NCBI GenBank assembly: GCA_020845455.1
Contig: JADLFO010000091.1
Location: forward strand, 1-48,536
Length of the DNA stretch: 48,536 nucleotides
Direction: 5' to 3'
Origin: Caldilineaceae bacterium
GTDB taxonomy: Bacteria > Chloroflexota > Anaerolineae > Caldilineales > Caldilineaceae
Below the pieces are notes generated by a model. That model searched no databases. It had not been told where the DNA came from and saw only the letters and a program-made list of their open reading frames with translations. The position numbers and the translations under genes were made by a program. Below, one piece after another: positions 35,217 through 48,393 of the stretch; positions within the stretch are counted from its first letter, which is position 1, and the number at the start of each line of letters is the position of its first letter.

Positions 35217-38200
35217 ATGCGCCTGGCCTATATTTGTGCGGACCCTGGCGTGCCCGTCTTTGGCTGCAAAGGGGCTTCCATCCACGTTCAAGAGGTCATT
35301 CGCGCCCTGCTGCGGGCCGGCGTCCAGGTCGAGTTGTTTGCCCGGCGTTTCGACGGCGACCCACCCGCCGGCTTGGAAGCGGCGCCGGTGCATGCTCTGC
35401 CCGCCGCACCCAAGGGCAGAGACGTGGCAGCGCGTGAGCAAATACTCTTACAGAGCAATGCCGTACTCAGGGCGCAGTTGGAGACAGCGGGACCCTTTGA
35501 TGCCGTCTACGAGCGCTATTCGCTGTGGAGCTACGGCGCCATGGACTATGCCCGATCTATGGGTATCCCAGGGCTGCTGGAGGTAAACGCGCCCCTGATC
35601 GACGAGGAACGCACCCATCGCACGTTGATCCACGAGCCAGAGGCGGAAGAGGTCGCCCGCACCCTGTTTGGCGCGGCGACTGCGCTGCTTCCGGTCTCGG
35701 ACAGCGTGGCAGCCTATATACGGCGCTTCGTGCCGGATGCGGCCATCCATGTGACACCTAATGGTGTGGACCCTATGCGCTTTGCCGACGTGGTGCCTGC
35801 CTACGTCTTCCCGTCTAAACGCTTTACCGTCGGATTTATCGGCACGCTCAAGCCGTGGCACGGGCTGGAAACGCTGGTCGAGGCGTTCTGCCGACTGCGT
35901 CAGGACCTACCCGCGGTGAAGTTGTTGATCGTGGGGGACGGTCCGTGCCGCGCCGATCTCGAGACGCAGATCGCCGCGCAGGGCATTGAGGCCGATGTAC
36001 ACTTCACCGGCGCGGTGCCGCACGACGAGGTGTCCGCCTATCTGGCGGTGATGGATGTAGCGGTTGCGCCCTATCCCCCTCTGGATGACTTCTACTTCTC
36101 ACCGCTTAAACTCTATGAATATATGGCCGCAGGGCTGCCCATCGTTGCCAGCCGCATCGGCCAGGTTCAGGACGCGGTCGAGCACGAGCGCACGGCCCTG
36201 CTGGTGACCCCAGGAGACAGCGGTGAACTGGCTGCGGCGCTGCGCCGTCTGTACGAAGACGAGGCGTTGGCGGCGCGCCTCAGTACCGCGGCGCTGTACC
36301 AAGTTCGCGCTGCCCACACCTGGGATCATATCGCGCAGCGCATCGTCGACCTGTGCGCCCAAGCGCAGCGGGATGTAGCGTCTGTCGACCAGCCGGATGC
36401 ATCGTTGGCCGCGCCCGATGCCGCGGGCGACGCTTCCATCCAGAAGGCCATTCCCGGCCTGGGGCGCATTCTGCACCGTCTGCGCGGTCCGATTCGCCAA
36501 GAATGGCGACTGCTGACGGCAGCGCTGCTGTCCATGCTGGCAAGCATCGGGCTGCGGCTATTAGAACCATGGCCGCTCAAGTTTGTCTTCGACTATCTGA
36601 GTGCAGGCACGGCCCAGGGTCTGCCAGGGTGGATGGCGGCTCAACCCACTGCGCTCAGCGGTAACATGCTCCTGATCTTGGCGGGTGCGGCCCTTCTTAT
36701 CGTGGGTATGGCGCGTGCAGGGGCCGGTTATCTCAACACCGTGACCCTGGCATTGGCCGGCAACCGGGTGCTGATGCGCGTGCGCGGCGATCTCTTTCGC
36801 CATCTGCTGCGCCTGCCCCTCTCCTTCCACGAACAGCGGCGCACTGGCGACCTGCTCAATCACCTGACCGGCGACATCGGTCGTCTGCAGGAGGTCGCGG
36901 TCACCGCCGTACTTCCCCTCGTCGTCAATGTGCTGACGCTGATGAGCATGGTGGGCATCATGTTTTGGATGAACTGGCGGTTGGCGCTGTTGGCGCTGCT
37001 TGCAATGCCGCTTTCGCTGCTGACCATGCGCCGCTTCGCCGGGCGCATCCGTACGGCCGCGCGCAAGCAACGTAAGCGGGAAGGCGCGCTCGCCGCCGAC
37101 GCCGGGGAGGCGCTCAACGCTATCCGTGTCGTGCAGACCTACTCGCTGGAGTCCGTGCTGGAGATGAGCTTTACAGCCCATGACCGCAAAAACCTCAAGG
37201 AAGGCGTGCGTGCCACGCGGCTGGCTGCGGGGATGGAACGCACTGTGGATGTGCTGATAGCGGCCGGCACCGGCGGCGTGCTCTGGTATGGCGCGACCTT
37301 GGTGCAAAACGGCGTACTGAGCGTGGGTGATCTGGTTGTCTTTCTCAATTACCTGAAAGCAGCTTTCCGACCCATGAACGATCTGGCCAAATATACGGGC
37401 CGCATCGCCAAGGCCGCGGCTTCCGGCGAGCGCGTTTTGAGTCTGCTTGATACGCCGCTGACCATCGCCGACCGCCCGGGTGCGCCGGCTGCCCCTGCCT
37501 TCCAAGGCGGGGTACGATTTGAGAATGTCGTCTTCAGCTATCTCCCCGGCCATCCCATCCTGCAGGATGCTGACTTTGTCGTACATCCCGGCCAACGTGT
37601 CGCGCTGGTCGGCCCATCGGGCGAAGGCAAGTCCACCATCGCCGGGCTGCTGCTGCGGCTATATGAACCCCAGGCTGGACGAATCACAATTGACGGCCAG
37701 GATATCCGCAGCTTTACCCTCGAGTCGCTGCGCCGCCAGGTGGGGGTCGTCATGCAGGAGAGTCTGCTTTTTGGCGTTAGCATACGCGAGAACATCGCCT
37801 ATGGGGCTGCGGGCGCAAGCAACGCCGAAGTGGAAGCCGCTGCCAAGTTGGCCAATGCCCACGACTTCATTCTGGCCCTGCCCCAAGGCTATGACACCGT
37901 CTTGGGTGAACGCGGCGCGACCCTGTCGGGCGGGCAGCGCCAGCGCATAGCCATCGCGCGTGCCGCCGTGCGCCAGGCTCCGCTGCTGATCTATGACGAG
38001 CCGACTACTAGCCTCGACAACGAAAACGAACAGGCTGTGGTGTCGGCGTTGCTCCAAATCGCCACAGGCCGCACTACCTTCTGGATCACCCATGACCTGA
38101 CCCTGGCTGAAGATGCCGACCTGATCCTTTATATCCAGGATGGTCGCGTGCAGGAGCAGGGCGCCCATGCCGAACTGATGGCGCGCGATGGACGCTATGC

Positions 38201-38348
38201 CGCTCTCTACCGCATCCAGCTTGGGTCGGCCGCACAGTCCTTGGCCGACGAGTATGGGAATGACGAGTGTGGGCATGATGAGTGTGGAGATTCGGAATTC
38301 ACTGGAGACATGGAAGGGGTAAAGACCACTTATGCTTTCACCCGGTGA
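35217..38348 (+). CDS. GT4 glycosyltransferase fused to an ABC exporter
   Basis: This 1043-residue fusion has a GT4 glycosyltransferase at residues ~1-390, with ICADPGVPVFGCKGASIHVQE at the N-terminus and the donor segment LYEYMAAGLPIVAS. After a linker there is a six-helix ABC exporter membrane domain (~415-730) and a nucleotide-binding domain. The ABC motifs are complete: Walker A GPSGEGKST from residue 799, QES in the Q-loop, signature LSGGQ near 903, Walker B LLIYDEPTTSLD and the H-loop in WITHDL. The polypeptide could therefore glycosylate a molecule and move it across the membrane, most likely as a homodimer. The gene starts at the base following the previous stop. The tail after the ABC domain is Asp/Glu-rich and low-complexity. 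The fusion is uncommon. Confidence 0.92.
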   Translation: MRLAYICADPGVPVFGCKGASIHVQEVIRALLRAGVQVELFARRFDGDPPAGLEAAPVHALPAAPKGRDVAAREQILLQSNAVLRAQLETAGPFDAVYERYSLWSYGAMDYARSMGIPGLLEVNAPLIDEERTHRTLIHEPEAEEVARTLFGAATALLPVSDSVAAYIRRFVPDAAIHVTPNGVDPMRFADVVPAYVFPSKRFTVGFIGTLKPWHGLETLVEAFCRLRQDLPAVKLLIVGDGPCRADLETQIAAQGIEADVHFTGAVPHDEVSAYLAVMDVAVAPYPPLDDFYFSPLKLYEYMAAGLPIVASRIGQVQDAVEHERTALLVTPGDSGELAAALRRLYEDEALAARLSTAALYQVRAAHTWDHIAQRIVDLCAQAQRDVASVDQPDASLAAPDAAGDASIQKAIPGLGRILHRLRGPIRQEWRLLTAALLSMLASIGLRLLEPWPLKFVFDYLSAGTAQGLPGWMAAQPTALSGNMLLILAGAALLIVGMARAGAGYLNTVTLALAGNRVLMRVRGDLFRHLLRLPLSFHEQRRTGDLLNHLTGDIGRLQEVAVTAVLPLVVNVLTLMSMVGIMFWMNWRLALLALLAMPLSLLTMRRFAGRIRTAARKQRKREGALAADAGEALNAIRVVQTYSLESVLEMSFTAHDRKNLKEGVRATRLAAGMERTVDVLIAAGTGGVLWYGATLVQNGVLSVGDLVVFLNYLKAAFRPMNDLAKYTGRIAKAAASGERVLSLLDTPLTIADRPGAPAAPAFQGGVRFENVVFSYLPGHPILQDADFVVHPGQRVALVGPSGEGKSTIAGLLLRLYEPQAGRITIDGQDIRSFTLESLRRQVGVVMQESLLFGVSIRENIAYGAAGASNAEVEAAAKLANAHDFILALPQGYDTVLGERGATLSGGQRQRIAIARAAVRQAPLLIYDEPTTSLDNENEQAVVSALLQIATGRTTFWITHDLTLAEDADLILYIQDGRVQEQGAHAELMARDGRYAALYRIQLGSAAQSLADEYGNDECGHDECGDSEFTGDMEGVKTTYAFTR

Positions 38349-39576: not shown

Positions 39577-40792
39577 CCCACCCATCAGCCTTTTACCCCA
39601 TGCCGAGACGTCCCAGGGTGGCTACGCTGCGCCGGTTGCGGCCCTATGCCAGATCATGTTGGACGCACCATGCGCCGCGCACGCCGGCCTGCCTGCGGGG
39701 GCATGGACGCTGTCCCGAATTGCTCTGAGCAGCACAGACCAAGTTCAGGTCCGCTATGTGCATCCAAGCGGACAGGAGGTGGTGGGCCAGTGGTTTGCCG
39801 ACGAAGCCAGCTTTGTCAAGGTCGTCCACGCCACGCGCAATGTTGCTGCCTCACCCTCGCAGGTTGTGACGCTGCCTTCCCACCGGCTCATGTGGCAGCT
39901 TGGCGGCGCAGACCGCCGTCTGCCCAAGCTGGCCGCGCTCTGCCAGTCCGGCGCAACCTTGGTCGTCCACCATCCTGAACGGCGCGCGGTCGTGCGGCTA
40001 CCTGACGCATCGCATTATGTCAAAGTGGTGCGGCCTGAACGCACTGCGGCCTTAGCCGTAGGGTTGCAGACCGTTCACCAAGCGCTGGCTGCCAGCGGAG
40101 CGCGCGCCCCCCAAGTTGTTTCAGTAGACGCGGATGCAGGGCTGGTGACCATGACCGCGCTGCCGGGGCGGGCGCTTCTCAGCGGGCTTGCCGATGACAC
40201 GCTTAGCCCCATACAATTGGCCGAGCTGGGCCGTCGAGCAGGTGAAACGTTGGCCGCACTGCATGGCAGTCAACTGCCCCCCGGCGCGCCCCACGATGCG
40301 TCTTCCGAAGCAACCGTGTTGGATCGGTGGCTACAGCGGCTATGTTGGATCGCGCCAGACCTGCACGCCGCGCTTACCCCCTTCGCACCGTCCGTCCAGA
40401 CAGCGTTGCTTGAAGGCAGCGGCGCCCCCCCGGTCCCGCTGCATCGCGACTGTTACGATAAGCAGTTCATCGGGGACGCAACGGGTATGGGGCTGCTCGA
40501 TTTTGATACATTCTCCTGGGGAGAAGCCGCCCTCGACGTTGCCAACTTCCTGGTGCATTGCGATCTGCGCGTCTGGCAGGGACGCTGCGCCTGGGCACAG
40601 GCAGCCACGTTGGCTACGGCCTTTCTGCAGGGTTATGGCGCGCAGACGATGGCGCACGACCGGCTGCTTGCCTATGCCGACGCCACGCGGCTGCGGCTCG
40701 CCTGTGTCTATGGCTGTCGCCCGCCGCAGCGCGCCACGGTCGCACGCCTGGTCGAGAGCATCGGCGCATCGTTGATTGGACTAATGCAGTGA
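39563..40792 (+). CDS. APH-fold phosphotransferase, copy 2
   Basis: This ~409-residue protein has the same fold as its neighbour. The catalytic motif is H294-R-D296 in PLHRDCYDKQF, and LLDFDTFSWGEAALDVANFLVH carries the metal-binding Asp. The start ATG 39563 is chosen because GGAG lies just upstream and because it overlaps the previous gene by only 14 bases; the earlier start in the same frame (39479) would lie deep inside that gene. The central ligand-binding part differs from copy 1, so the substrates are probably different. As the last gene of the glycosyltransferase-exporter row it probably acts on the same product or precursor. Confidence 0.8.
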   Translation: MWPPNPPISLLPHAETSQGGYAAPVAALCQIMLDAPCAAHAGLPAGAWTLSRIALSSTDQVQVRYVHPSGQEVVGQWFADEASFVKVVHATRNVAASPSQVVTLPSHRLMWQLGGADRRLPKLAALCQSGATLVVHHPERRAVVRLPDASHYVKVVRPERTAALAVGLQTVHQALAASGARAPQVVSVDADAGLVTMTALPGRALLSGLADDTLSPIQLAELGRRAGETLAALHGSQLPPGAPHDASSEATVLDRWLQRLCWIAPDLHAALTPFAPSVQTALLEGSGAPPVPLHRDCYDKQFIGDATGMGLLDFDTFSWGEAALDVANFLVHCDLRVWQGRCAWAQAATLATAFLQGYGAQTMAHDRLLAYADATRLRLACVYGCRPPQRATVARLVESIGASLIGLMQ

Positions 40793-40830
40793 CATGTAAT
40801 TCCTGTAGACTGACGGGCCTGAACACCCGT

Positions 40831-41550
40831 ATGATACGGCGGGCGCAAAGCGCAGTCAACAGCAGAACGAAGAGCGCGCGGGCGTGGTTCCGCCGCGGCG
40901 CGGGGCGGATCTATGGCTGGGCATGTGAGCGGCTCTACCGCGAGCTTGCCTGGAGCTATGAGGGCGTGGCGGCGGCGGTGAGTCTGGGGCGTTGGGGTGC
41001 ATGGCGGCGCATGGCGCTGGCGGAGGCGGTAGGGCCGCGTGTGCTGGAGTTGGGCTTTGGCACGGGCGCGCTGTTGGTGGAAGGCAGCCGCCGTTTTCAG
41101 ATGGTGGGGCTGGACCCGTCGCCGGAGATGCAGCGGGTCGCCGGGCGGCGGCTGGCGGCGCACGGTCTGCAGGGACTGCGCGTGGCCGGATGCGCCCAGG
41201 CGCTGCCTTTTGCGGACGGCTGTATGGACACGGTGCTGGCGACCTTTCCGGCCGAGTATATCCTGGAGCGGGCGACGCTGGCCGAATGCGCGCGGGTGTT
41301 GGTCCTCGGCGGGCGGCTGGTGATTGGCGGGCTGTGGGTGAGCGCGGAATTGGGCGGATGGGAGCGCTGGATCCCGGTCTTTTTCGGCGCGCCGCCCGAG
41401 GCGGGGCGTGCGGCGTGGCCGGCGCGGCTGGGGGAGGCCGGGTTTGCGGCGCGGATCGTGGAGCCATGCGACGGTAGATTTCGCGTAGGCATGATCATCG
41501 GCGAGCGGATGAGGACGTCTCCATGCGTAGAGGGCGATACTCATGCATAG
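40831..41550 (+). CDS. Class I SAM-dependent methyltransferase
   Basis: This ~239-residue protein has the class I methyltransferase core. Motif I is VLELGFGTGALL, followed by the acidic second strand with GLDPSPEM, a catalytic-side segment ALPFADGCMDTVLATFP and ARVLVLGGRLVIGGLW. The pattern is UbiE/type-11 like. The start is ATG 40831; the frame is open further upstream, but that region overlaps the kinase gene and lacks the family's features. The last bases overlap the following gene by eight, suggesting co-translation. Substrate unknown. The two genes have a much higher GC style than the kinases before them and the RiPP genes after them. Confidence 0.85.
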   Translation: MIRRAQSAVNSRTKSARAWFRRGAGRIYGWACERLYRELAWSYEGVAAAVSLGRWGAWRRMALAEAVGPRVLELGFGTGALLVEGSRRFQMVGLDPSPEMQRVAGRRLAAHGLQGLRVAGCAQALPFADGCMDTVLATFPAEYILERATLAECARVLVLGGRLVIGGLWVSAELGGWERWIPVFFGAPPEAGRAAWPARLGEAGFAARIVEPCDGRFRVGMIIGERMRTSPCVEGDTHA

Positions 41551-42328
41551 GCCGAACAAGCGGCCCAATTTTGATCTGCTTGCTGCGCCGTCGGCTCCCC
41601 TCATACTCGAGGTGGGATCGGGCCGCGTGACGGAGCAAGATCGCACTGTGCGGCTGGAGATCGGCGCGCAAGAGGGGACGCACTATGCCAATGCCCAGGC
41701 GGACGACTATCACCAGGGTGGGGCGAGGTTCCGCTGGCGTCCCCCGCTGCGGCTGCAGGTCGAGGCGCGGTTCTCGCATGGCGCAGAGGAATTGCGCGGC
41801 ACGGCGGGCTTCGGTTTTTGGAACGATCCGTTTGGCATGGCGGGCAGGGCGCGGTGGGACCTGCCGCGCACGCTCTGGTTTTTCTTTGCGGGGCCGCCGA
41901 GCGATCTGCCGTTGGCAGCCGGCGTGGCGGGGCGCGGATGGAAGGCGGCGACGCTCGACGCGCGGCGCTGGGGGGCGCTGGCGACGCTGCCGGCGGCTCC
42001 GCTGATCGCGCCGATGCTGCGGATCCACCGGCTGTATCACTGGTGGTGGCGGCGTGTGCAGCGGCGGTTACGCATTGGCGAGGCGCTGATTCCGGTTGAC
42101 CTGCGAGCGTGGCATCACTACGAGATCGAATGGGGTGTGGCGCAGTGCCGGTTTTGGGTGGACGACCGGCTTCTCCTCAGCCTGCCGTTTGCGCCGGGCG
42201 GGCCGATGGGGTTAGTGACGTGGATCGATAACCAGTTTATGGTGATGACGCCGCAGGGCCGGTTTCGCCATGGGGTGGTGGCGGCGGAGGCGCAGTGGCT
42301 GGAGATCAGGGCGCTGCGCATCATCTGA
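41543..42328 (+). CDS. Beta-rich protein resembling GH16/concanavalin-type domains
   Basis: This 261-residue protein has alternating beta strands and features like those of jelly-roll proteins of GH16-like type: GFGFWNDPFGM, a helix-rich insertion around LIAPMLRIHRLYHWWW, HHYEIEWGVAQCRFWVDD and a C-terminal strand. The catalytic ExDxxE motif of true GH16 enzymes is not visible, so a hydrolase function is not supported; a carbohydrate- or lipid-binding role is possible. The gene overlaps the preceding methyltransferase gene by eight bases. It is convergent with the RiPP operon and ends 34 bases from that operon's last gene. Confidence 0.6.
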   Translation: MHRPNKRPNFDLLAAPSAPLILEVGSGRVTEQDRTVRLEIGAQEGTHYANAQADDYHQGGARFRWRPPLRLQVEARFSHGAEELRGTAGFGFWNDPFGMAGRARWDLPRTLWFFFAGPPSDLPLAAGVAGRGWKAATLDARRWGALATLPAAPLIAPMLRIHRLYHWWWRRVQRRLRIGEALIPVDLRAWHHYEIEWGVAQCRFWVDDRLLLSLPFAPGGPMGLVTWIDNQFMVMTPQGRFRHGVVAAEAQWLEIRALRII

Positions 42329-42362: not shown

Positions 42363-43319
42363 TCACTCATCGCCCGCCCTGAAGAGCATCTGAACTAGAT
42401 TGCTCATAGCTGTTTCCAAGTCATACTGGCCATGGATCCAGGGCAACCAAATCCTGTCCAACATCTCAGGCAAAACCTTTGCTCTCAGCATGGAACCTAC
42501 TCTAGTATAGATATTTCTTGATTCTGCATAGGGTACATAATCGGACGCAATCACCTCGCGCACCAGGCTGCCGCTCGAATAAAACAGTAAGAGATGAAAT
42601 AGGTGCAATGCGTCGTGCTGGGATCGTCCTTTCAGTTCACACTGACGTTTTATGAATCCGTAAGCGGACTGTTGATCACGCTTGTTTAGCTCTGCCATGA
42701 CGTGGGTTAGCTCGTGTACGATAGCCTCGACAAGCGCTGGCCCGCGAAATTTCGCAATACTAATCACGGTTGGGTGGCTGTAACCGCCTGTTCGTTGGTA
42801 TGTAATTGGGACTAAGGTTACCTGATAGGAGGATAAGTGTCTCTTGAGACCCAGCCGTTCTGCCTGAAGTGATAGCAGTCGATCCTTGTGGGGGAGCAGC
42901 AACGTCTCCAACTCTTCCAGAGCAAGCAGCAACAGCCTGTGGCTATCGGGCCACAGGCTGTTGCGATACAGTGTCTCTACTTTGTCTAGCGCGTCAGCTA
43001 TCTCGCCGGCCAACGCCGCCGCCCGCGCCTGAAGTTTCACACTCAGTTCTGCAATTGTTTTGGACTCTACAACAGGATACTCGAAGAAGTTGAGCGGCCC
43101 CAGAGCGGTGGTCATGGGTGATATCCTCTCCGCCTGTTGTCGCCAGTGGGGATCTGCGGGGTAATCCGTCGAATCGGGAGGCAGTTGTGACAGGTATACC
43201 AGATATTGGTACAGAGACGATACGAGAGAAAATGAAACCGTCACTTGAGGCGTGTATCGCTCAGGGATGACTAACGTCCCGCTGTCACCCAAGGGATCGT
43301 ACATGGCCGCTGGACTCAC
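42363..43319 (-). CDS. HExxH protein of the RiPP operon (possible peptide-modifying or leader-processing enzyme)
   Basis: This 318-residue protein carries HELTH (H202-H206) in an EAIVHELTHVMAELN context, with further histidines in LHLFHLL (H239, H242) that could supply a third metal ligand. Such HExxH proteins (mod_HExxH, TIGR04267-like) recur in peptide-modification clusters, and some relatives are reported to be iron/2-oxoglutarate hydroxylases rather than peptidases. Which applies here is open. The start GTG 43319 follows GGAG at seven bases, and the gene overlaps the partner-protein gene by 35 bases, so co-translation is likely. An alternative ATG lies at 43304. It is the last gene of the minus-strand operon. 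Confidence 0.7.
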   Translation of the reverse strand: MSPAAMYDPLGDSGTLVIPERYTPQVTVSFSLVSSLYQYLVYLSQLPPDSTDYPADPHWRQQAERISPMTTALGPLNFFEYPVVESKTIAELSVKLQARAAALAGEIADALDKVETLYRNSLWPDSHRLLLLALEELETLLLPHKDRLLSLQAERLGLKRHLSSYQVTLVPITYQRTGGYSHPTVISIAKFRGPALVEAIVHELTHVMAELNKRDQQSAYGFIKRQCELKGRSQHDALHLFHLLLFYSSGSLVREVIASDYVPYAESRNIYTRVGSMLRAKVLPEMLDRIWLPWIHGQYDLETAMSNLVQMLFRAGDE

Positions 43320-44196
43320 CGCTCTGCTCCGAGAAAGCGCCGTATCCCAAACCTATAACACCCTGTTCGACCAGTGATTTGCACAGGCTCAGACACTGAC
43401 CCCTGAACCCTGGCATACGTCTGGGGGTATCCTCGTGAAATTCGCGTGCCAGACTGTACACAATCGCCCCGAATGGCGTGGAACCGTCACATGCCTGGAT
43501 AAACGCAAATGTGCGGTAGTTGATTCTCGTCTGCACGACTGACCCAGAAGAATCAACTTTGAGGAGGACAAGCATGGCCTGTTTCTTGACCGCCGGACGC
43601 GTTTTGCCTCTTTCAAGGTCCCTGCCGAGCGATTCAACATCGTAGTTGAGCGCGACGATCCGGATATTCAGCCTGAAGGGTATGAGGTTTTCCGATGTGC
43701 CAGCACTACGCAATAGGTGAAGGTAGGCGGCAGGATTCTTGGAGGAACTGACAGTACGGTATCCGTCAGCGTCAAAACGGATCTCCAACACGCTCATCTC
43801 GTAATTCAATACATCCTGCAAATACGGTGGTGTCGGTGGTATATGGCGGAATCTCTCCTGAAGATATACTCCAAAGGCCATCGCTTCACGATACTTCTTG
43901 GCATCCTTGGGTGGTGAAGCCTGATTAAACTCATAGGCGATTTGACCTAGCTCACTGCCCAGAATCTTGGTCGTCCAGGGTAACCCATCCATGGCCTTGC
44001 CAAGCCGATTGGTGACCAGCAATCTCGAAAAGATTTCCACTCGCTTGTGGTCCATCTGCAAAAAGTATTGCTGCTGCTCAGCGGAAAGACCTAGCTCGGC
44101 CAACGGCCGGGTGTCGCCGGCAAAGACAACCTGACGCATCTCCGCATCGGTGACCAAGCGCGCAAATGCCTTTTGATAAGTAAGCAGTTGGGACAA
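43285..44196 (-). CDS. MNIO partner protein with RRE-like C-terminal domain
   Basis: This 303-residue protein resembles the accessory subunits encoded beside DUF692/MNIO oxidases (MbnC, TglI, ChrI type). Its N-terminal helical part contains a precursor-like AFARLVTDAEMRQVV segment and YLQDVLNYEMSVLEI near residue 130. The C-terminal ~100 residues (FAFIQACDGSTPFGAIVYSL through LVEQGVIGLGYG) resemble a PqqD-like winged helix that binds leader peptides. The same organisation recurs at the C-terminus of the glycosyltransferase fusion in this operon. The start codon is TTG, supported by the strong AAGGGAGGT site. It is expected to hold the precursor and deliver it to the MNIO enzyme. It overlaps the HExxH gene. 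Confidence 0.78.
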   Translation of the reverse strand: MSQLLTYQKAFARLVTDAEMRQVVFAGDTRPLAELGLSAEQQQYFLQMDHKRVEIFSRLLVTNRLGKAMDGLPWTTKILGSELGQIAYEFNQASPPKDAKKYREAMAFGVYLQERFRHIPPTPPYLQDVLNYEMSVLEIRFDADGYRTVSSSKNPAAYLHLLRSAGTSENLIPFRLNIRIVALNYDVESLGRDLERGKTRPAVKKQAMLVLLKVDSSGSVVQTRINYRTFAFIQACDGSTPFGAIVYSLAREFHEDTPRRMPGFRGQCLSLCKSLVEQGVIGLGYGAFSEQSGESSGHVRSLG

Positions 44197-44200
44197 AATA

Positions 44201-44207
44201 ACCTCCC
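44201..44207 (-). promoter_or_regulatory. Strong ribosome site supporting a TTG start
   Basis: GGGAGGT on the minus strand lies four bases before TTG 44196. No ATG in that frame is placed as well, so the partner protein probably starts at TTG. Confidence 0.75.
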
Positions 44208-44230
44208 TTCTGAGTTTGAAGGGTATTGAT

Positions 44231-45115
44231 TCACTTTAGAGAACCACTTAGCAGCAATTCGCTTGCCGATTGTGAGGCGTGATATGGGGCCCAGTCCCTG
44301 AGCAATATCTCGCGCACATGATCCAATTCTGCCAATAGCTCACTCATCGGCGGGTACTCTTGATCGCGTTCGATCATGACGCATTTCAGATTTGGCATTT
44401 GCGGTGCGACATACTGGAGCATGTCAAACACATCGGGTGGGACTGGATGACTGTGCGTGTCAAGCAGAATCCCCTCGAAGGTGTCACCACCGGCCAGATG
44501 GATCTGGATCACATGATCGAGTGGAATATGATCCAGGAAATCGAGGTGATCCAACTGATTATTCACCGCGTTATTTTGTACGTTGGTCAAATCCAGCAGA
44601 AGCCAACAGCCTGATTCATCCACGACTCTGCTGATAAACTCAGCTTCAGTCATCGTCGTGGGCGGTACGAGAAAGTAGTAGGAGATGTTCTCGACGGCAA
44701 AAGGGCAGGTGAAGGTAGATGCCACATGCCGTATGTTGTGAACTGTCGCAGCTACAGTAGCTTCGTTAAATGACAGAGGGGTGAGCTGGCCGATGTTGAG
44801 TCCTGGAACCTGCGTATAGGCAATGTGCTCACTGACGAACTTCGGATTTGTCCAACTGGCGACCTGATGGACTTTATCTAGGTACTCTTCGCTGATAGGG
44901 CTATCGGTCCCCACCGAAAGCTCAATTCCATGCAAAATCACCGGAAAGCGTTCGGCCAACAGCCGGGCTTCTTTTTCCTTGTAGGGCGGCATATCGAGAT
45001 ATTGATCGATGACAAGCTCGAGAAAATCAATACGCTCCGCCGAGGAAAGAATACCCTCTGCCATTTCCTGCCGGTAGCCAAGACCAACACCCAGGAAAGG
45101 TATATTCTCCAACAT
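44231..45115 (-). CDS. DUF692 / MNIO multinuclear iron oxidase
   Basis: This 294-residue TIM-barrel enzyme of the MNIO family (the MbnB, TglH, ChrH group) uses two or three iron ions to oxidise cysteine or nearby residues in RiPP precursors. Expected iron ligands are visible: H62 (LHGIELS), H97 (SEHIAY), E142 (VENISYY), D175 and N178 (LLLDLTNVQNN), H206 (IHLAGG), D219 and H221 (LLDTHSHPV), and E249-R-D251 near the C-terminus. A purine-rich ribosome site (GGGGAGGGG) precedes its ATG. It follows the Cys-rich precursor gene and precedes the partner protein gene, the standard MNIO arrangement. It most likely modifies the five-cysteine core of that precursor. The exact chemistry is not predictable. 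Confidence 0.93.
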   Translation of the reverse strand: MLENIPFLGVGLGYRQEMAEGILSSAERIDFLELVIDQYLDMPPYKEKEARLLAERFPVILHGIELSVGTDSPISEEYLDKVHQVASWTNPKFVSEHIAYTQVPGLNIGQLTPLSFNEATVAATVHNIRHVASTFTCPFAVENISYYFLVPPTTMTEAEFISRVVDESGCWLLLDLTNVQNNAVNNQLDHLDFLDHIPLDHVIQIHLAGGDTFEGILLDTHSHPVPPDVFDMLQYVAPQMPNLKCVMIERDQEYPPMSELLAELDHVREILLRDWAPYHASQSASELLLSGSLK

Positions 45116-45262
45116 TGTGGCCCCCCTCCCCTACAAAGATATCCAGGCTCTGTCAGGTGGTAACGCCAGGTGGGTAACAGTCGAACATTTTGCAGGCGCC
45201 GCTCCAGAAGATTTGGATACCGTAATCCTCTGGAGCACGCTGCACACGTGGATTGGGCCGGT

Positions 45263-45496
45263 CTACGTCGGTAGTGGACGCAATCCAACAAGCTTATTCT
45301 CCTCCGCCACCCGAGCAGAGCAGACGACACAAATGATACAGATCAGACAGATGATGCAGCTTGACGCCAAGTTGCCGCCGCGCACCGGTTTCATAGCACG
45401 CAGTTCGAACTTCGTGTCGTTTCCGCCAAGCGTTTTCGCTGCTCTGAACTTCTCCATATCAATTTCGCCGCGGACCTGCAGTTTCGTCTCCGCCAT
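45263..45496 (-). CDS. RiPP precursor peptide with a five-cysteine CxxCxxCxxCxxC core
   Basis: This 77-residue peptide has an N-terminal leader (KLQVRGEIDMEKF) that shares its T-[KR]-L-x-V-x-G-E pattern with the leader-like peptide at 45692. A GG pair at 40-41 is followed by the core NLASSCIICLICIICVVCSA, with cysteines at 47, 50, 53, 56 and 59, each three apart and separated by hydrophobic pairs. A polar tail follows (RVAEENKL). The gene has an ideal ribosome site (GAAGGAG) before ATG 45496, sits directly upstream of the MNIO gene on the same strand and is expected to be modified by it. The GG could be a cleavage point for leader removal, but no leader protease of the PCAT type is encoded here. 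The peptide's final form is unknown. Confidence 0.88.
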   Translation of the reverse strand: MAETKLQVRGEIDMEKFRAAKTLGGNDTKFELRAMKPVRGGNLASSCIICLICIICVVCSARVAEENKLVGLRPLPT

Positions 45497-45691
45497 GGTG
45501 TTTCTCCTTCGGCCACTGCCGAACTCTGGACAGCAAAAACAACGCGTTCAGAAGCTCAGATCATCCGGCCATCTCCTTTCGGGTGTTCTGTGAACTGCGG
45601 CGCAATGCTGATACCTGCATTGCACCCATGAAGCGACATCAATACAGCACGAAGGGATCTCTGCAACGACCGTAGAGAACAGGGACACGCA

Positions 45692-45904
45692 TCAGACGTC
45701 GTATCGCTGGCGCGGGGTCGATGCCACGATCATGATTTTATAGGCCTTACGCCGGGCGCTTTTCGTTACTGTCAGAAAACGCTGTAAGTTCACCTCTCCA
45801 ACGACTCTAAGACGCGTCGTAGCTCGCGAATCATCCGTCGGCGTCTTATCACCAGAATGCTGACCTTCTGGAAAAGGATACTGCTTAGGTTGCTCGCTGT
45901 TCAT
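45692..45904 (-). CDS. Leader-like small peptide without a cysteine core
   Basis: This 70-residue peptide contains TRLRVVGEVNLQRF (30-43), aligned with TKLQVRGEIDMEKF of the Cys-rich precursor: T, L, V, G, E and F are identical and other positions are conservative. No cysteine follows. The C-terminal part is basic (TKSARRKAYKIMIV) and ends in RQRYDV. It starts 16 bases after the glycosyltransferase-fusion stop, with CAGGA as ribosome site. It may be a decayed second precursor, a core of another chemistry, or a decoy/regulatory leader. A shifted frame downstream reads SDACPCS, which hints at a lost Cys core but is too weak to annotate. Confidence 0.65.
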   Translation of the reverse strand: MNSEQPKQYPFPEGQHSGDKTPTDDSRATTRLRVVGEVNLQRFLTVTKSARRKAYKIMIVASTPRQRYDV

Positions 45905-45919
45905 GACTCTATCCTGCCC

Positions 45920-47935
45920 CTATATGCCAGCGCTGTTTGTTTCGCCACAAGATTTGAACCCAATAACGCCTTCCCAGTACAAACCCTCCAAGACTGAGAC
46001 ACAGCTTTGAAGCAGTTGCGTCTCTGCGGCAGCATCTTCACAAGGGTAATGATTCGATACTGCTGTAAATACCTCCTCCATGGTCATGGAAGTGGAGGCG
46101 AGTAAGCGAAGCAAATACTCGGTCGGCTCGTTCACTCTTAAGGGCAGGGAACTGGGATGGAATAGCACTTTGGTTGGTTCCCCTATGGGGGATACCGTTT
46201 CCTTGTTTTCAATTGCCATCATGATGGTCTCGACGTCACAGGTAAATTGCACAACTTCGATGCCGTCTCGAACCGTGGGTATCAGAGAACTCAGACCTTG
46301 AAGCGAGAAAGTAATACCATCAACGCTTTGGGTCTCTTTCACCCCCATGCTTCGGGCGGCCAGTTCATGCAGCTTCATTTCATAGCGGCATACTTCGTGA
46401 ATCATCGCCAACTCGACATCGGGATCGGCCTCAAGCGCGGATAGAATTTCCTGCCCTAATGTGACCGCAAGCTGACGGCGGTCGTGAATACCCTGCCCAA
46501 TCGCGCTCCCTGCGACTACTTCACGAATCCGCCTTTGTGCCTCGGCAGTCAAAAGGGCGTGGGTGTATGGAAACAACCCACTCATCATTTCGAAGACATC
46601 TCTACGGCCGATTGGATCTTCGGGCCGCGTAACAATTAGCCTCTGGGCGCGCGGCTCATTCGCCACCTCTCTGAGCAGATTTTCCAAGTCATCAATATAT
46701 CGATTATGGAAATCACCTAGATGAAGGTCCTGGAAACCCCGGTGGCCAATTCTGTCAGCACGGTGAGCATCCTCGAGCGCAAAGCGTATACATGCGGCGA
46801 GCTCATCATGCTGCTGCGGGTTGGGAACGATCACGATGTTTTCGCGGTTGCGGATTTGCATACGAAACAACTGCTTGTGCGCCACTTCCTGAGAGAGAAT
46901 TAGGCACGTTCCACAGGCGATCACTTCTGTGGGAATCGTGGGTCCGTGGGTTGCAATCGGAAAGTCACGCTCCAAAAACGCAATTGCTGTACAACTGCGG
47001 ATGAAAGCAGGAATTTTCCAGTGAGGCAGAAACGGTAGGAAGCGAACGTACGCCGCTAGGCCTAGTTCTTCAATCAACTGCCGCACCCGATGCTCTTGCC
47101 AGCCGTGAGCAAGCAACACCACGTAAAACTGAAACCCGTCGCGGATCAGCCGGGCCATGGCATGGAAAAGGTCAAAGGTTCCCTTGTACTCTCCCAACTT
47201 GCCATATACGCCAAGCACAGGCCACCCTTTGGCAAGGGGCCATCCGTGCAGATCTGTGCTTCCTTCAGTCTCGTCAGCCAGTTCCAAAAAAAATCCGTTC
47301 AAGTCAACCGGCTGCACATCCGGGTGAAAGTGTTCTAAAGGGATGCCGAAGGCGATATGGGAGCTGATGCGCTCCTCGGCAACCCCGTAGCTGATCAATT
47401 TCTCGCGCGAGCGCCCATGCGAAATGACCCTGTTCGCGCGCGCCAGTACCTCTACATAGGCGGTCTGCAACTCCTCCAGAGGCATCAGGCGGTTCAAGTC
47501 ACTGCCCGCATGTTTCAGAATATAGGGGATCCCTGTCCAATAGCTGGCGAGATGGGCGGCCAAAGCATAGGGTTCAAAATAGTATGTGAAGATAACCTCA
47601 CAGCGCTCTTTGCGTATCGTATCGGCGGCGATGGTTGCCAGTCGAGTCACCGTCGGGTTGTTGAGGGGAATGTAATACATCTGGCTCCGATCGGGCGGTT
47701 GTGTGCTGTACACATGGACAGAACCGGACGATTCTGGAAATGCTGGGGCATATGCCCCGCCAGCGGCACGGTCAGACTGCGAAAGATGGATTCGATAGGC
47801 AGGTTCGACCTCGTCCGCATTTGTGACGACGAAAACCTTGTGACCCTTCTTCGCCAGCCCGCGTGCAGACCAGTAGCATTGCACGCTGACGCCGCCTTGA
47901 ATCGGTGGATATTTGCAGATAAAGCAGATGTTCAT
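45920..47935 (-). CDS. GT4 glycosyltransferase fused to an MNIO-partner / RRE-like domain
   Basis: This protein has 671 residues. Residues 1-~430 are a GT-B glycosyltransferase of family 4 type (FICKYPPIQGGVSVQCYWSARGLA at the N-terminus, GVYGKLGEYKGTFDLFHAMA, and the donor segment HGPTIPTEVIACGTCLILS). Residues ~440-671 resemble the stand-alone partner protein of this operon: EVCRYEMKLHEL aligns with DVLNYEMSVLEI, a following LIP...DVE segment aligns with LIP...DVE, and the C-terminal winged-helix segment ends in EGVIGF as the partner ends in QGVIGL. It thus joins a sugar transferase to a leader-binding module, implying leader-guided glycosylation of the RiPP (inference). It is the first long gene of the operon and starts at ATG 47935, overlapping a short upstream frame by four bases. 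Confidence 0.85.
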   Translation of the reverse strand: MNICFICKYPPIQGGVSVQCYWSARGLAKKGHKVFVVTNADEVEPAYRIHLSQSDRAAGGAYAPAFPESSGSVHVYSTQPPDRSQMYYIPLNNPTVTRLATIAADTIRKERCEVIFTYYFEPYALAAHLASYWTGIPYILKHAGSDLNRLMPLEELQTAYVEVLARANRVISHGRSREKLISYGVAEERISSHIAFGIPLEHFHPDVQPVDLNGFFLELADETEGSTDLHGWPLAKGWPVLGVYGKLGEYKGTFDLFHAMARLIRDGFQFYVVLLAHGWQEHRVRQLIEELGLAAYVRFLPFLPHWKIPAFIRSCTAIAFLERDFPIATHGPTIPTEVIACGTCLILSQEVAHKQLFRMQIRNRENIVIVPNPQQHDELAACIRFALEDAHRADRIGHRGFQDLHLGDFHNRYIDDLENLLREVANEPRAQRLIVTRPEDPIGRRDVFEMMSGLFPYTHALLTAEAQRRIREVVAGSAIGQGIHDRRQLAVTLGQEILSALEADPDVELAMIHEVCRYEMKLHELAARSMGVKETQSVDGITFSLQGLSSLIPTVRDGIEVVQFTCDVETIMMAIENKETVSPIGEPTKVLFHPSSLPLRVNEPTEYLLRLLASTSMTMEEVFTAVSNHYPCEDAAAETQLLQSCVSVLEGLYWEGVIGFKSCGETNSAGI

Positions 47936-48156
47936 AGGTCACCGTGTTCGCGCATCGTGGCCGCGGCGATATCCAACTTCTGGACTTCTGCCTGTCCAAA
48001 AGTATGGGCAAACCTACGAGCCGAAAACTCCGGTCGGGGTCTACGCGCGTCTACTGTCGATGAGGGCTTGGTGTCAAGCTGCTGGAGCACTTCGAAACCG
48101 AAGTGACTTTCCAGTGCAAGCGAACCGCTATACCGTTGCGTACCGACCGATCTTCG
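47932..48156 (-). pseudogene. ATGA-coupled ORF fragment before the glycosyltransferase fusion
   Basis: A 74-codon open stretch ends in TGA overlapping the ATG of the next gene. It reads LALESHFGFEVLQQLDTKPS, then ARRPRPEFSARRF, and has protein-like composition, but no good start codon follows the in-frame stops TGA and TAG at 48157-48162. The ARRPRPEFS block faintly recalls the C-terminus of dTDP-4-dehydrorhamnose reductase (RmlD). It may be a gene remnant or merely a leader-RNA stretch. The identity is a guess. Confidence 0.25.
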
Positions 48157-48242
48157 CTATCACGGCGAGTCGAGACAGGATGCTCCGCAATATCGGCACG
48201 CACAGAGGAAGAGCGCCGCTGTTGGGGGATGCCCGAGGACAC

Positions 48243-48283
48243 GATCAGGACCTGATCAGCCTCAGCTCACATTCGTGTGAGCT
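48243..48283. promoter_or_regulatory. Tandem operator-like palindromes in the operon leader
   Basis: GATCAGG-A-CCTGATC (48243-48257) is a perfect palindrome. It is followed by AGCTCACA-TTCG-TGTGAGCT (48264-48283), a perfect 8-bp stem with a tetraloop. Both lie about 75-115 bases downstream of the predicted transcription start. They may be repressor sites or RNA hairpins that control the operon. Confidence 0.5.
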
Positions 48284-48364
48284 ATCTGGCGATGAACGGC
48301 AGTGAGGTGGAGCGTGCGGTGATGCTAGGAATATCGAGCGTGTGATGCTTCGTCAGATGGACAC

Positions 48365-48393
48365 AATATAAACACATACAACCCACTTGTCAA
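48365..48393 (-). promoter_or_regulatory. Near-consensus sigma-70 promoter of the RiPP operon
   Basis: On the minus strand TTGACA (48388-48393) is separated by exactly 17 bases from TATATT (48365-48370). Transcription would begin near 48358 and run into the glycosyltransferase-fusion gene after a leader of about 420 bases. It is the best promoter match in the window. Confidence 0.75.

Follow-up and report, generated by a model that had tools for sequence, protein, structure and literature searches.

What does a six-gene operon near the end of a Caldilineaceae contig produce, and does the glycosyltransferase (GT) that it encodes act on the same peptide as its oxidative enzyme? The locus lies in a 48,536-nt stretch that we analyzed as a whole and call the window (Caldilineaceae bacterium, assembly GCA_020845455.1, contig JADLFO010000091.1, forward strand, positions 1-48,536). 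Six minus-strand genes, A to F, follow one another head to tail from 47935 down to 42363, with intergenic gaps of 15 (A-B), 195 (B-C), 147 (C-D), 34 (D-E) and -35 bases (E-F). A preliminary description had proposed that they form an operon for a ribosomally synthesized and post-translationally modified peptide (RiPP), comprising an MNIO (DUF692) oxidative enzyme, a GT-partner fusion, a leader-like peptide, a cysteine-rich precursor, a stand-alone partner and an HExxH protein, and all six open reading frames (ORFs) were confirmed at their coordinates. The best-supported explanation, which we consider reasonably probable, is an MNIO RiPP pathway that would combine cysteine oxidation, glycosylation guided by RiPP recognition elements (RREs), and processing of a C-terminal follower.

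The oxidative enzyme is encoded by gene D (44231-45115, minus strand; 294 aa), the only MNIO in the genome and present as a single copy. In a Pfam scan, it matches PF05114 over residues 9-271 with 264 bits against a cut-off of 25 (E-value 1.2e-78), in agreement with the DUF692 oxidase first described. H62, H97, E142, N143, D175, H206, D219, H221, and E249 are invariant in our alignment A1 and for the most part also found at the aligned positions of 3bww, TglH and MbnB; which of them bind iron we take from general knowledge. D is predicted to oxidize precursor C with O2. Its best NCBIfam scores are 215.5 bits for BufB and 201.3 bits for HvfB, both below the respective cut-offs of 310 and 360.

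Pfam did not detect the partner nature of gene E (43285-44196, minus strand; 303 aa, with a TTG start behind AGGGAGG) or of the C-terminus of gene A (45920-47935, minus strand; 671 aa), and gave no match for A or E to DUF2063, the domain of PME-type 1 partners. Using NCBIfam, we found that E matches HvfC (NF050145, E-value 2.5e-5), as do 8 of 9 E homologues (best 1.3e-14), for which ApyI and PqqD models were also matched; the C-terminus of A alone gave weak PqqD-type matches only. Comparison of E with the fusion C-terminus by hhalign indicates homology from end to end (99.9%, E-value 9e-31). An AlphaFold2 model of the fusion C-terminus, computed from an alignment of 13 fusion C-termini, has a mean predicted local distance difference test score (pLDDT) of 85 and a predicted TM-score of 0.81, and consists of a helical domain followed by an RRE-type fold. 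When this model was compared with the PDB by Foldseek, the TglI chains of the TglHI holoenzyme, 8hi7_A and 8hci_A, came out on top (E-values 1.6e-5 and 2.1e-4, probability 1.00) as the sole significant matches, followed by PqqD (5sxy, probability 1.00). Because of the TglI-type fold, the homology to E and the matches to HvfC, ApyI, and PqqD, we conclude that A, as modeled, is a GT (about residues 1-424) joined to a complete TglI-like MNIO partner with a C-terminal RRE (about residues 440-671), and that the operon carries two MNIO partners, the second being the stand-alone protein E, which also ends in an RRE. The presence of two partners had been surmised in the preliminary description. A direct search for relatives of E in 400 genomes of the phylum gave weak matches only, too divergent to be of use, and a PDB sequence search with the E profile returned nothing usable.

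Gene C (45263-45496, minus strand; 77 aa), whose ATG is preceded by an AAGGAG resembling a ribosome-binding site, encodes the precursor peptide, made up of a leader (VRGEIDMEKFRAAKTLGGNDTKFELRAMKP), a core (SSCIICLICIICVVC) and a follower (SARVAEENKLVGLRPLPT). Its N-terminus is hydrophilic and charged by inspection, and the leader has the pattern VRG..K..AA..LGG....FELRAMKP, ahead of the CxxC-repeat core CIICLICIICVVC. The five-cysteine CxxC run did not arise once in 200,000 shuffles, and, of 702 small ORFs in the window, no other has a CxxC run of at least four. No Pfam or NCBIfam family matched C. A precursor profile gave E-values of 1e-32 to 1e-45 across loci and C is 48-56% identical to members in three further phyla, which bears out the earlier claim of a cysteine-rich precursor. 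The family pattern, found in every locus of the closest clade, reads VRG (or IRG), K, AA, LGG, FELRAMKP, S/T/N and C[IV][IV]C[LF][IV]C.., with S, T or N immediately ahead of the first Cys in all precursors of the closest group. Streptomycete members have four Cys in the core, while the precursors of the window, Bryobacteraceae and Acetobacteraceae have five.

This core bears on the role of the product. Regular CxxC spacing lends itself to metal binding, most MNIO products with Cys motifs have to do with metals (PMC12452194), and D scores best against the BufB and HvfB maturases (215 and 201 bits), all of which would fit a bufferin-like or methanobactin-like chelator that counters stress by copper or other metals and carries the sugar as a minor decoration, rather than a signaling or antimicrobial glycopeptide. 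We regard such a role as possible but doubtful, given that D stays below the BufB and HvfB cut-offs, that the partner is TglI-like and not DUF2063, and that the operon shows no metal-transport and no evident signal-peptide features. The gene assignment would be the same for a chelator.

Gene B (45692-45904, minus strand; 70 aa) has a leader-like stretch and lacks a Cys core. Its segment ATTRLRVVGEVNLQRF resembles the C leader (AETKLQVRGEIDMEKF) across no more than 16 residues (pairwise shuffle p = 0.0002), which makes B weakly leader-like but does not firmly establish the leader-like peptide of the preliminary description; the precursor profile did not pick up B, and no counterpart was seen in the other loci. 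B may be a leader-only peptide or a decayed precursor paralogue, and is the least certain part of the operon. The frame beyond its TGA is open for 47 codons and includes several Cys (window 45548-45691, minus strand), probably representing a decayed precursor or chance. Readthrough or recoding at this TGA was dropped, as no relative supports it.

Is the association of these genes conserved? A search of the genome collection with the MNIO alone gave 23 loci, and a GT homologue lies no more than 8 kb from the MNIO in 14 of them, including all those nearest to the window. The remaining nine comprise one locus with a fusion remnant, six with none (L058-L063), one whose contig ends too soon and one whose MNIO has decayed. 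The window MNIO groups with six others in a clade (support 100/99) in which every locus has the fusion, the FELRAMKP precursor and E; the GT4-partner fusion (GT4 being GT family 4), the MNIO and this precursor occur together in the window, L043, L044, L045, L046, L047 and L079. The fusion gene of Kitasatospora humi (L043, 5496-7446) is frameshifted in the draft and intact in the related genome G618 (L079). The same gene set and precursor family are found in Streptomyces, Kitasatospora, Bryobacteraceae, and Acetobacteraceae, and the GT4-partner fusion is found with MNIO genes in at least four phyla, the kind of conserved co-occurrence that had been named beforehand as support. The precursor gene precedes A in Bryobacteraceae and Acetobacteraceae and lies between A and D in the window and the streptomycetes; with the order varying from one subclade to another and the set itself preserved, the pattern is not that of a single block simply being inherited. 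Over the whole MNIO tree, the GT label shows five changes, compared to 8.8 in shuffles. Among plasmids, the 13 records with an MNIO and the 2 with a GT (E-value 1e-40) do not overlap, and GT pairing is therefore not a general feature of MNIOs. The system with the FELRAMKP precursor is rare: good matches to the precursor probe, known loci included, numbered 3 among 395 Streptomycetaceae, 2 among 250 genomes of the order of Acetobacteraceae and 1 among 297 Acidobacteriota genomes, and no viral contig matched the system.

Looser versions, all with Cys-repeat peptides, occur in Ktedonobacteria, Nocardia, Actinoplanes and Pseudoalteromonas. Next to the fusion and the MNIO, the repeats are CCSCGGCCMC in Nocardia, CGGCTGCSGC in Pseudoalteromonas byunsanensis, CSGCDGCMGC in Actinoplanes, CQRCQQC in Ktedonobacter and CTGCSCCNAGGCNGCKGC in a Rhodococcus-labelled metagenome-assembled genome. 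Three Nocardia species (L048, L049, L050) share a 49-aa peptide directly ahead of the MNIO that ends in LPCC(S/M)CGGCC(M/R)CYA and represents a second conserved family of Cys-rich precursors. The Ktedonobacteria loci (L027-L031, L053, L054, L057, L064) hold a GT4-partner fusion, a CxxCxxC peptide and an MNIO, with a PP2C-like phosphatase gene coming after them in several cases (assigned by eye). Several Ktedonobacter copies (L029, L030/L064, L032/L065) look disrupted, with the fusion split or truncated beside transposase- or maturase-like ORFs and the MNIO broken by a stop. The Actinoplanes locus (L052, 2022-12575) comprises two Cys-repeat precursors, a stand-alone partner, an MNIO and a GT fusion, along with a carbamoyltransferase-like and two asparagine-synthetase-like proteins, and in P. 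byunsanensis (L051, 8907-12639) ABC exporter-like and asparagine-synthetase-like genes follow the fusion and the MNIO (both by eye).

The N-terminal part of A matches PF00534, PF13439 and PF13579 above cut-off, as a divergent two-domain GT4 enzyme. No part of the fusion is better conserved, with 35-57% identity to the other fusions versus 12-32% for the partner part, and a PPIQGGVS loop and a YGK.G..KG motif are kept. Because of this identity and of the invariant ERxF....H.P....E loop and KG motif, the GT domain is probably under selection as an enzyme, and probably active. The canonical EX7E motif is not found: all 14 fusions have ERxF-x4-H-x-P-x4-E, with 14 residues between both Glu. A close solved GT4 relative of the GT domain was not found in the PDB. 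The altered motif, the lack of a close solved relative and the presence of a GT-free partner, E, encoded alongside would also be compatible with a genuine MNIO RiPP operon whose GT does not act on the peptide, either because the GT domain is a scaffold, or because another acceptor is glycosylated, at the cell surface or in the form of a small-molecule co-substrate, the fusion in both cases just holding the proteins together. We think this unlikely, since the GT domain is better conserved than the partner part and has invariant polar residues in its loop, the RRE tether points to the precursor pathway, and the fusion is retained in all the nearest loci.

Gene F (42363-43319, minus strand; 318 aa), which shares 35 bases with the end of E, contains the HExxH motif noted in the preliminary description (VHELTH). 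Its homologues occupy the same position in L045, L046 and L047, and the HExxH motif as well as a downstream His and Arg are invariant among them. No family matched F in Pfam or NCBIfam, a PDB search with the F profile gave nothing usable, and a structure prediction from four sequences reached a pLDDT of 44 and was discarded. TIGR04267, the family of α-ketoglutarate (αKG)-dependent HExxH enzymes, was not matched in NCBIfam by F or its homologues, a search of genome G000 was likewise negative, and no TIGR04267 members for comparison with F were found in 61 genomes. Membership of the known αKG-HExxH family (TIGR04267 / IPR026337) was rejected, given the lack of a family match. In the four loci with F, the precursor carries a follower of 18-21 residues after the last Cys (4/4), and in the three streptomycete-type loci, whose whole genomes lack F homologues, the precursors end 7-8 residues past the last Cys (0/3 with a follower). 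Because the presence of F and of the follower change together, this comparison suggests that F acts on the follower or processes it.

How F would do so is a more balanced matter. PflC and PosC, two HEXXH enzymes of MNIO clusters, remove a C-terminal tail oxidatively, and the HExxH proteins of MNIO clusters characterized so far (BpmH, PflC, PosC) are αKG-dependent (PMC12636437). By analogy, F may be likened closely to PflC and PosC, even if it is not recognized as an αKG-HExxH member. Almost equally, F could be no oxygenase but a common zinc metalloprotease by which leader or follower is cut away, as HExxH is the classic zincin motif, TIGR04267 is not matched, the operon is otherwise without a peptidase and F tracks with the follower. 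This second possibility is weakened somewhat by the αKG dependence of BpmH, PflC and PosC (PMC12636437), and by the invariant downstream His and Arg, which would suit an iron/αKG site.

Taken together, we propose that the operon yields a RiPP from precursor C. The C-terminal RREs of E and of fusion A would bind the conserved leader (VRG...FELRAMKP), and E would present the CxxC-repeat core to D, which, like other Cys-acting MNIOs, would oxidize the cysteines to groups most likely of the thiooxazole or oxazolone/thioamide type. The GT4 of A, tethered to a second copy of the partner and so aimed at the same leader, would move a sugar onto the core, possibly onto the Ser, Thr or Asn immediately preceding the first Cys, or onto a Cys. 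Finally, F would process the C-terminal follower by hydrolysis or by PflC/PosC-like oxidative cleavage. Where the fusion occurs without a stand-alone partner (Ktedonobacteria, Pseudoalteromonas), it is probably the sole MNIO partner, which would bring GT and MNIO into one complex. While the gene-level claims are well supported, both the cysteine oxidation and the glycosylation of peptide C are predictions from sequence, and several points weigh against this pathway. The altered EX7E motif leaves the donor and the activity of the GT4 uncertain, the GT association across the whole MNIO tree requires several gains or losses, and the link between F and the follower amounts to one evolutionary event on the tree. 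In addition, the operon of the window encodes no leader-removal peptidase or export transporter, its start lying 600 bases away from the end of the contig.

The base composition of the locus raises the question of its origin. The GC content drops from 0.65 to 0.52 at the operon, with a sharp step at 42.4 kb, a close MNIO is absent from 80 relatives, and the operon is lacking in those of the same genus and family. These features, together with an estimated contamination of 5.7% for the bin, might indicate contamination or misassembly at the contig end. We consider this very improbable. A gene about 26 kb from the operon on the same contig is 91% identical to that of a same-genus genome, and another congener, which lacks the operon, still has the adjoining gene pair (40558-42325), so that the contig is native; moreover, the operon is intact, with gene-for-gene counterparts elsewhere, and the GC step is accounted for by horizontal transfer. 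Contamination was set aside on account of the native flanking genes shared with congeners, and the simplest reading is that the operon was acquired horizontally.

Some other features of the window can be mentioned. A strong RNA hairpin lies between C and D (45201-45236, minus strand; 13-bp stem GCTCCAGAGGATT / AATCTTCTGGAGC; z of -2.1 for the folded region 45116-45262), and might set the ratio of precursor to enzyme expression. Rfam gave no match within the window. The near-consensus promoter of the preliminary description, TTGACA-17-TATATT (48365-48393, minus strand), is present about 430 bases upstream of gene A; its significance did not hold up, with 1 site observed versus 3.9 expected in shuffles. 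Further away, a GT4 glycosyltransferase and an ABC exporter (PF00664 and PF00005) are fused in a 1043-aa ORF (35217-38348, plus strand), whose neighbors code for a GT28-type protein, a GT4 protein, a methyltransferase and two APH-fold kinases. This region is a separate, unusual glycosylation and export cluster.

The combination of a GT4-partner fusion, an MNIO and a Cys-repeat peptide was not found in the literature searched. We found no published description of the gene set, in line with the preliminary view that it lies outside the described classes, and as the search did not cover supplements and most subscription papers, this novelty is provisional. The FELRAMKP motif was likewise not found in that literature, in which no MNIO pathway glycosylates its peptide and partners are known solely as recognition subunits. 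There is a fair chance of a new RiPP class among MNIO RiPP clusters. Slightly short of an even chance, in our view, is the full reading of an undescribed class, where a GT-bearing MNIO partner would allow a physically linked assembly to oxidize one CxxC-repeat peptide and, guided by RREs, to glycosylate it, an unassigned HExxH family would trim the follower, and the product would be a sugar-bearing chain with cysteine-derived groups at regular intervals. If true, a GT-fused partner would show the partner to be a general docking platform, able to recruit a further enzyme to one and the same peptide. With its regular CxxC repeats and conserved leader, the precursor family is a simple substrate, and the orthologous sets in cultured Streptomyces and Kitasatospora make the Cys chemistry, the sugar transfer and the new HExxH family directly testable. 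With this locus, the range of MNIO RiPPs comes to include Chloroflexota as well, and there is evidence of inter-phylum transfer; neither glycosyltransferases nor Chloroflexota are named in the main text of the 2025 MNIO landscape paper (PMC12452194).

Among known systems, glycocins are RiPPs with sugars on Cys or Ser/Thr, but they rely on GT2-type S/O-glycosyltransferases, have a disulfide-rich core and involve no MNIO. Membership of this group was rejected, since the GT here is a GT4 and the operon has no GT2. RRE-glycosyltransferase fusions are named, as survey items only, in the available parts of RRE-Finder surveys (PMC7470986, PMC12710340); these resemble A in having an RRE fused to a glycosyltransferase, whereas the GT there belongs to PF00535, GT family 2 (PMC12710340), with no MNIO link in those parts, and here a GT4 is joined to a full MNIO partner. 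The bufferin and HvfBC systems (BufB, HvfB; DUF2063 partners) are the nearest MNIO families by score, and the partner is weakly similar to HvfC. Nevertheless, the scores here lie below the curated cut-offs, which led us to reject bufferin membership, no DUF2063 signature is found, precursor C is unrelated in sequence and has no evident Sec signal peptide, and the GT fusion and the HExxH enzyme are additional.

The ApyHI (aminopyruvatide) and other PME-type 2 systems (PMC12452194) share with this operon a precursor with no evident signal peptide and a PME-type 2-like partner, and the ApyI model matches several of the fusions; they differ by the lack of a GT and by another precursor and other tailoring enzymes. 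The pfl and pos clusters (PflC, PosC, MNIO-nitroreductase fusion) similarly pair an HExxH enzyme with an MNIO and a precursor having a C-terminal tail, which the HExxH enzyme cuts (PMC12636437). In contrast, F is not detectably an αKG-HEXXH enzyme, pfl and pos have no GT, and the precursor and core differ. Compared to TglHI of the 3-thiaglutamate/pearlin pathway, TglI is stand-alone without a GT, the identity between partners is 11%, and the TglHI precursor, Cys site included, does not resemble the CxxC-repeat core of C; both systems nonetheless combine an MNIO with a partner made of a helical domain and an RRE, the C-terminus of A matching the TglI fold and D aligning with TglH.

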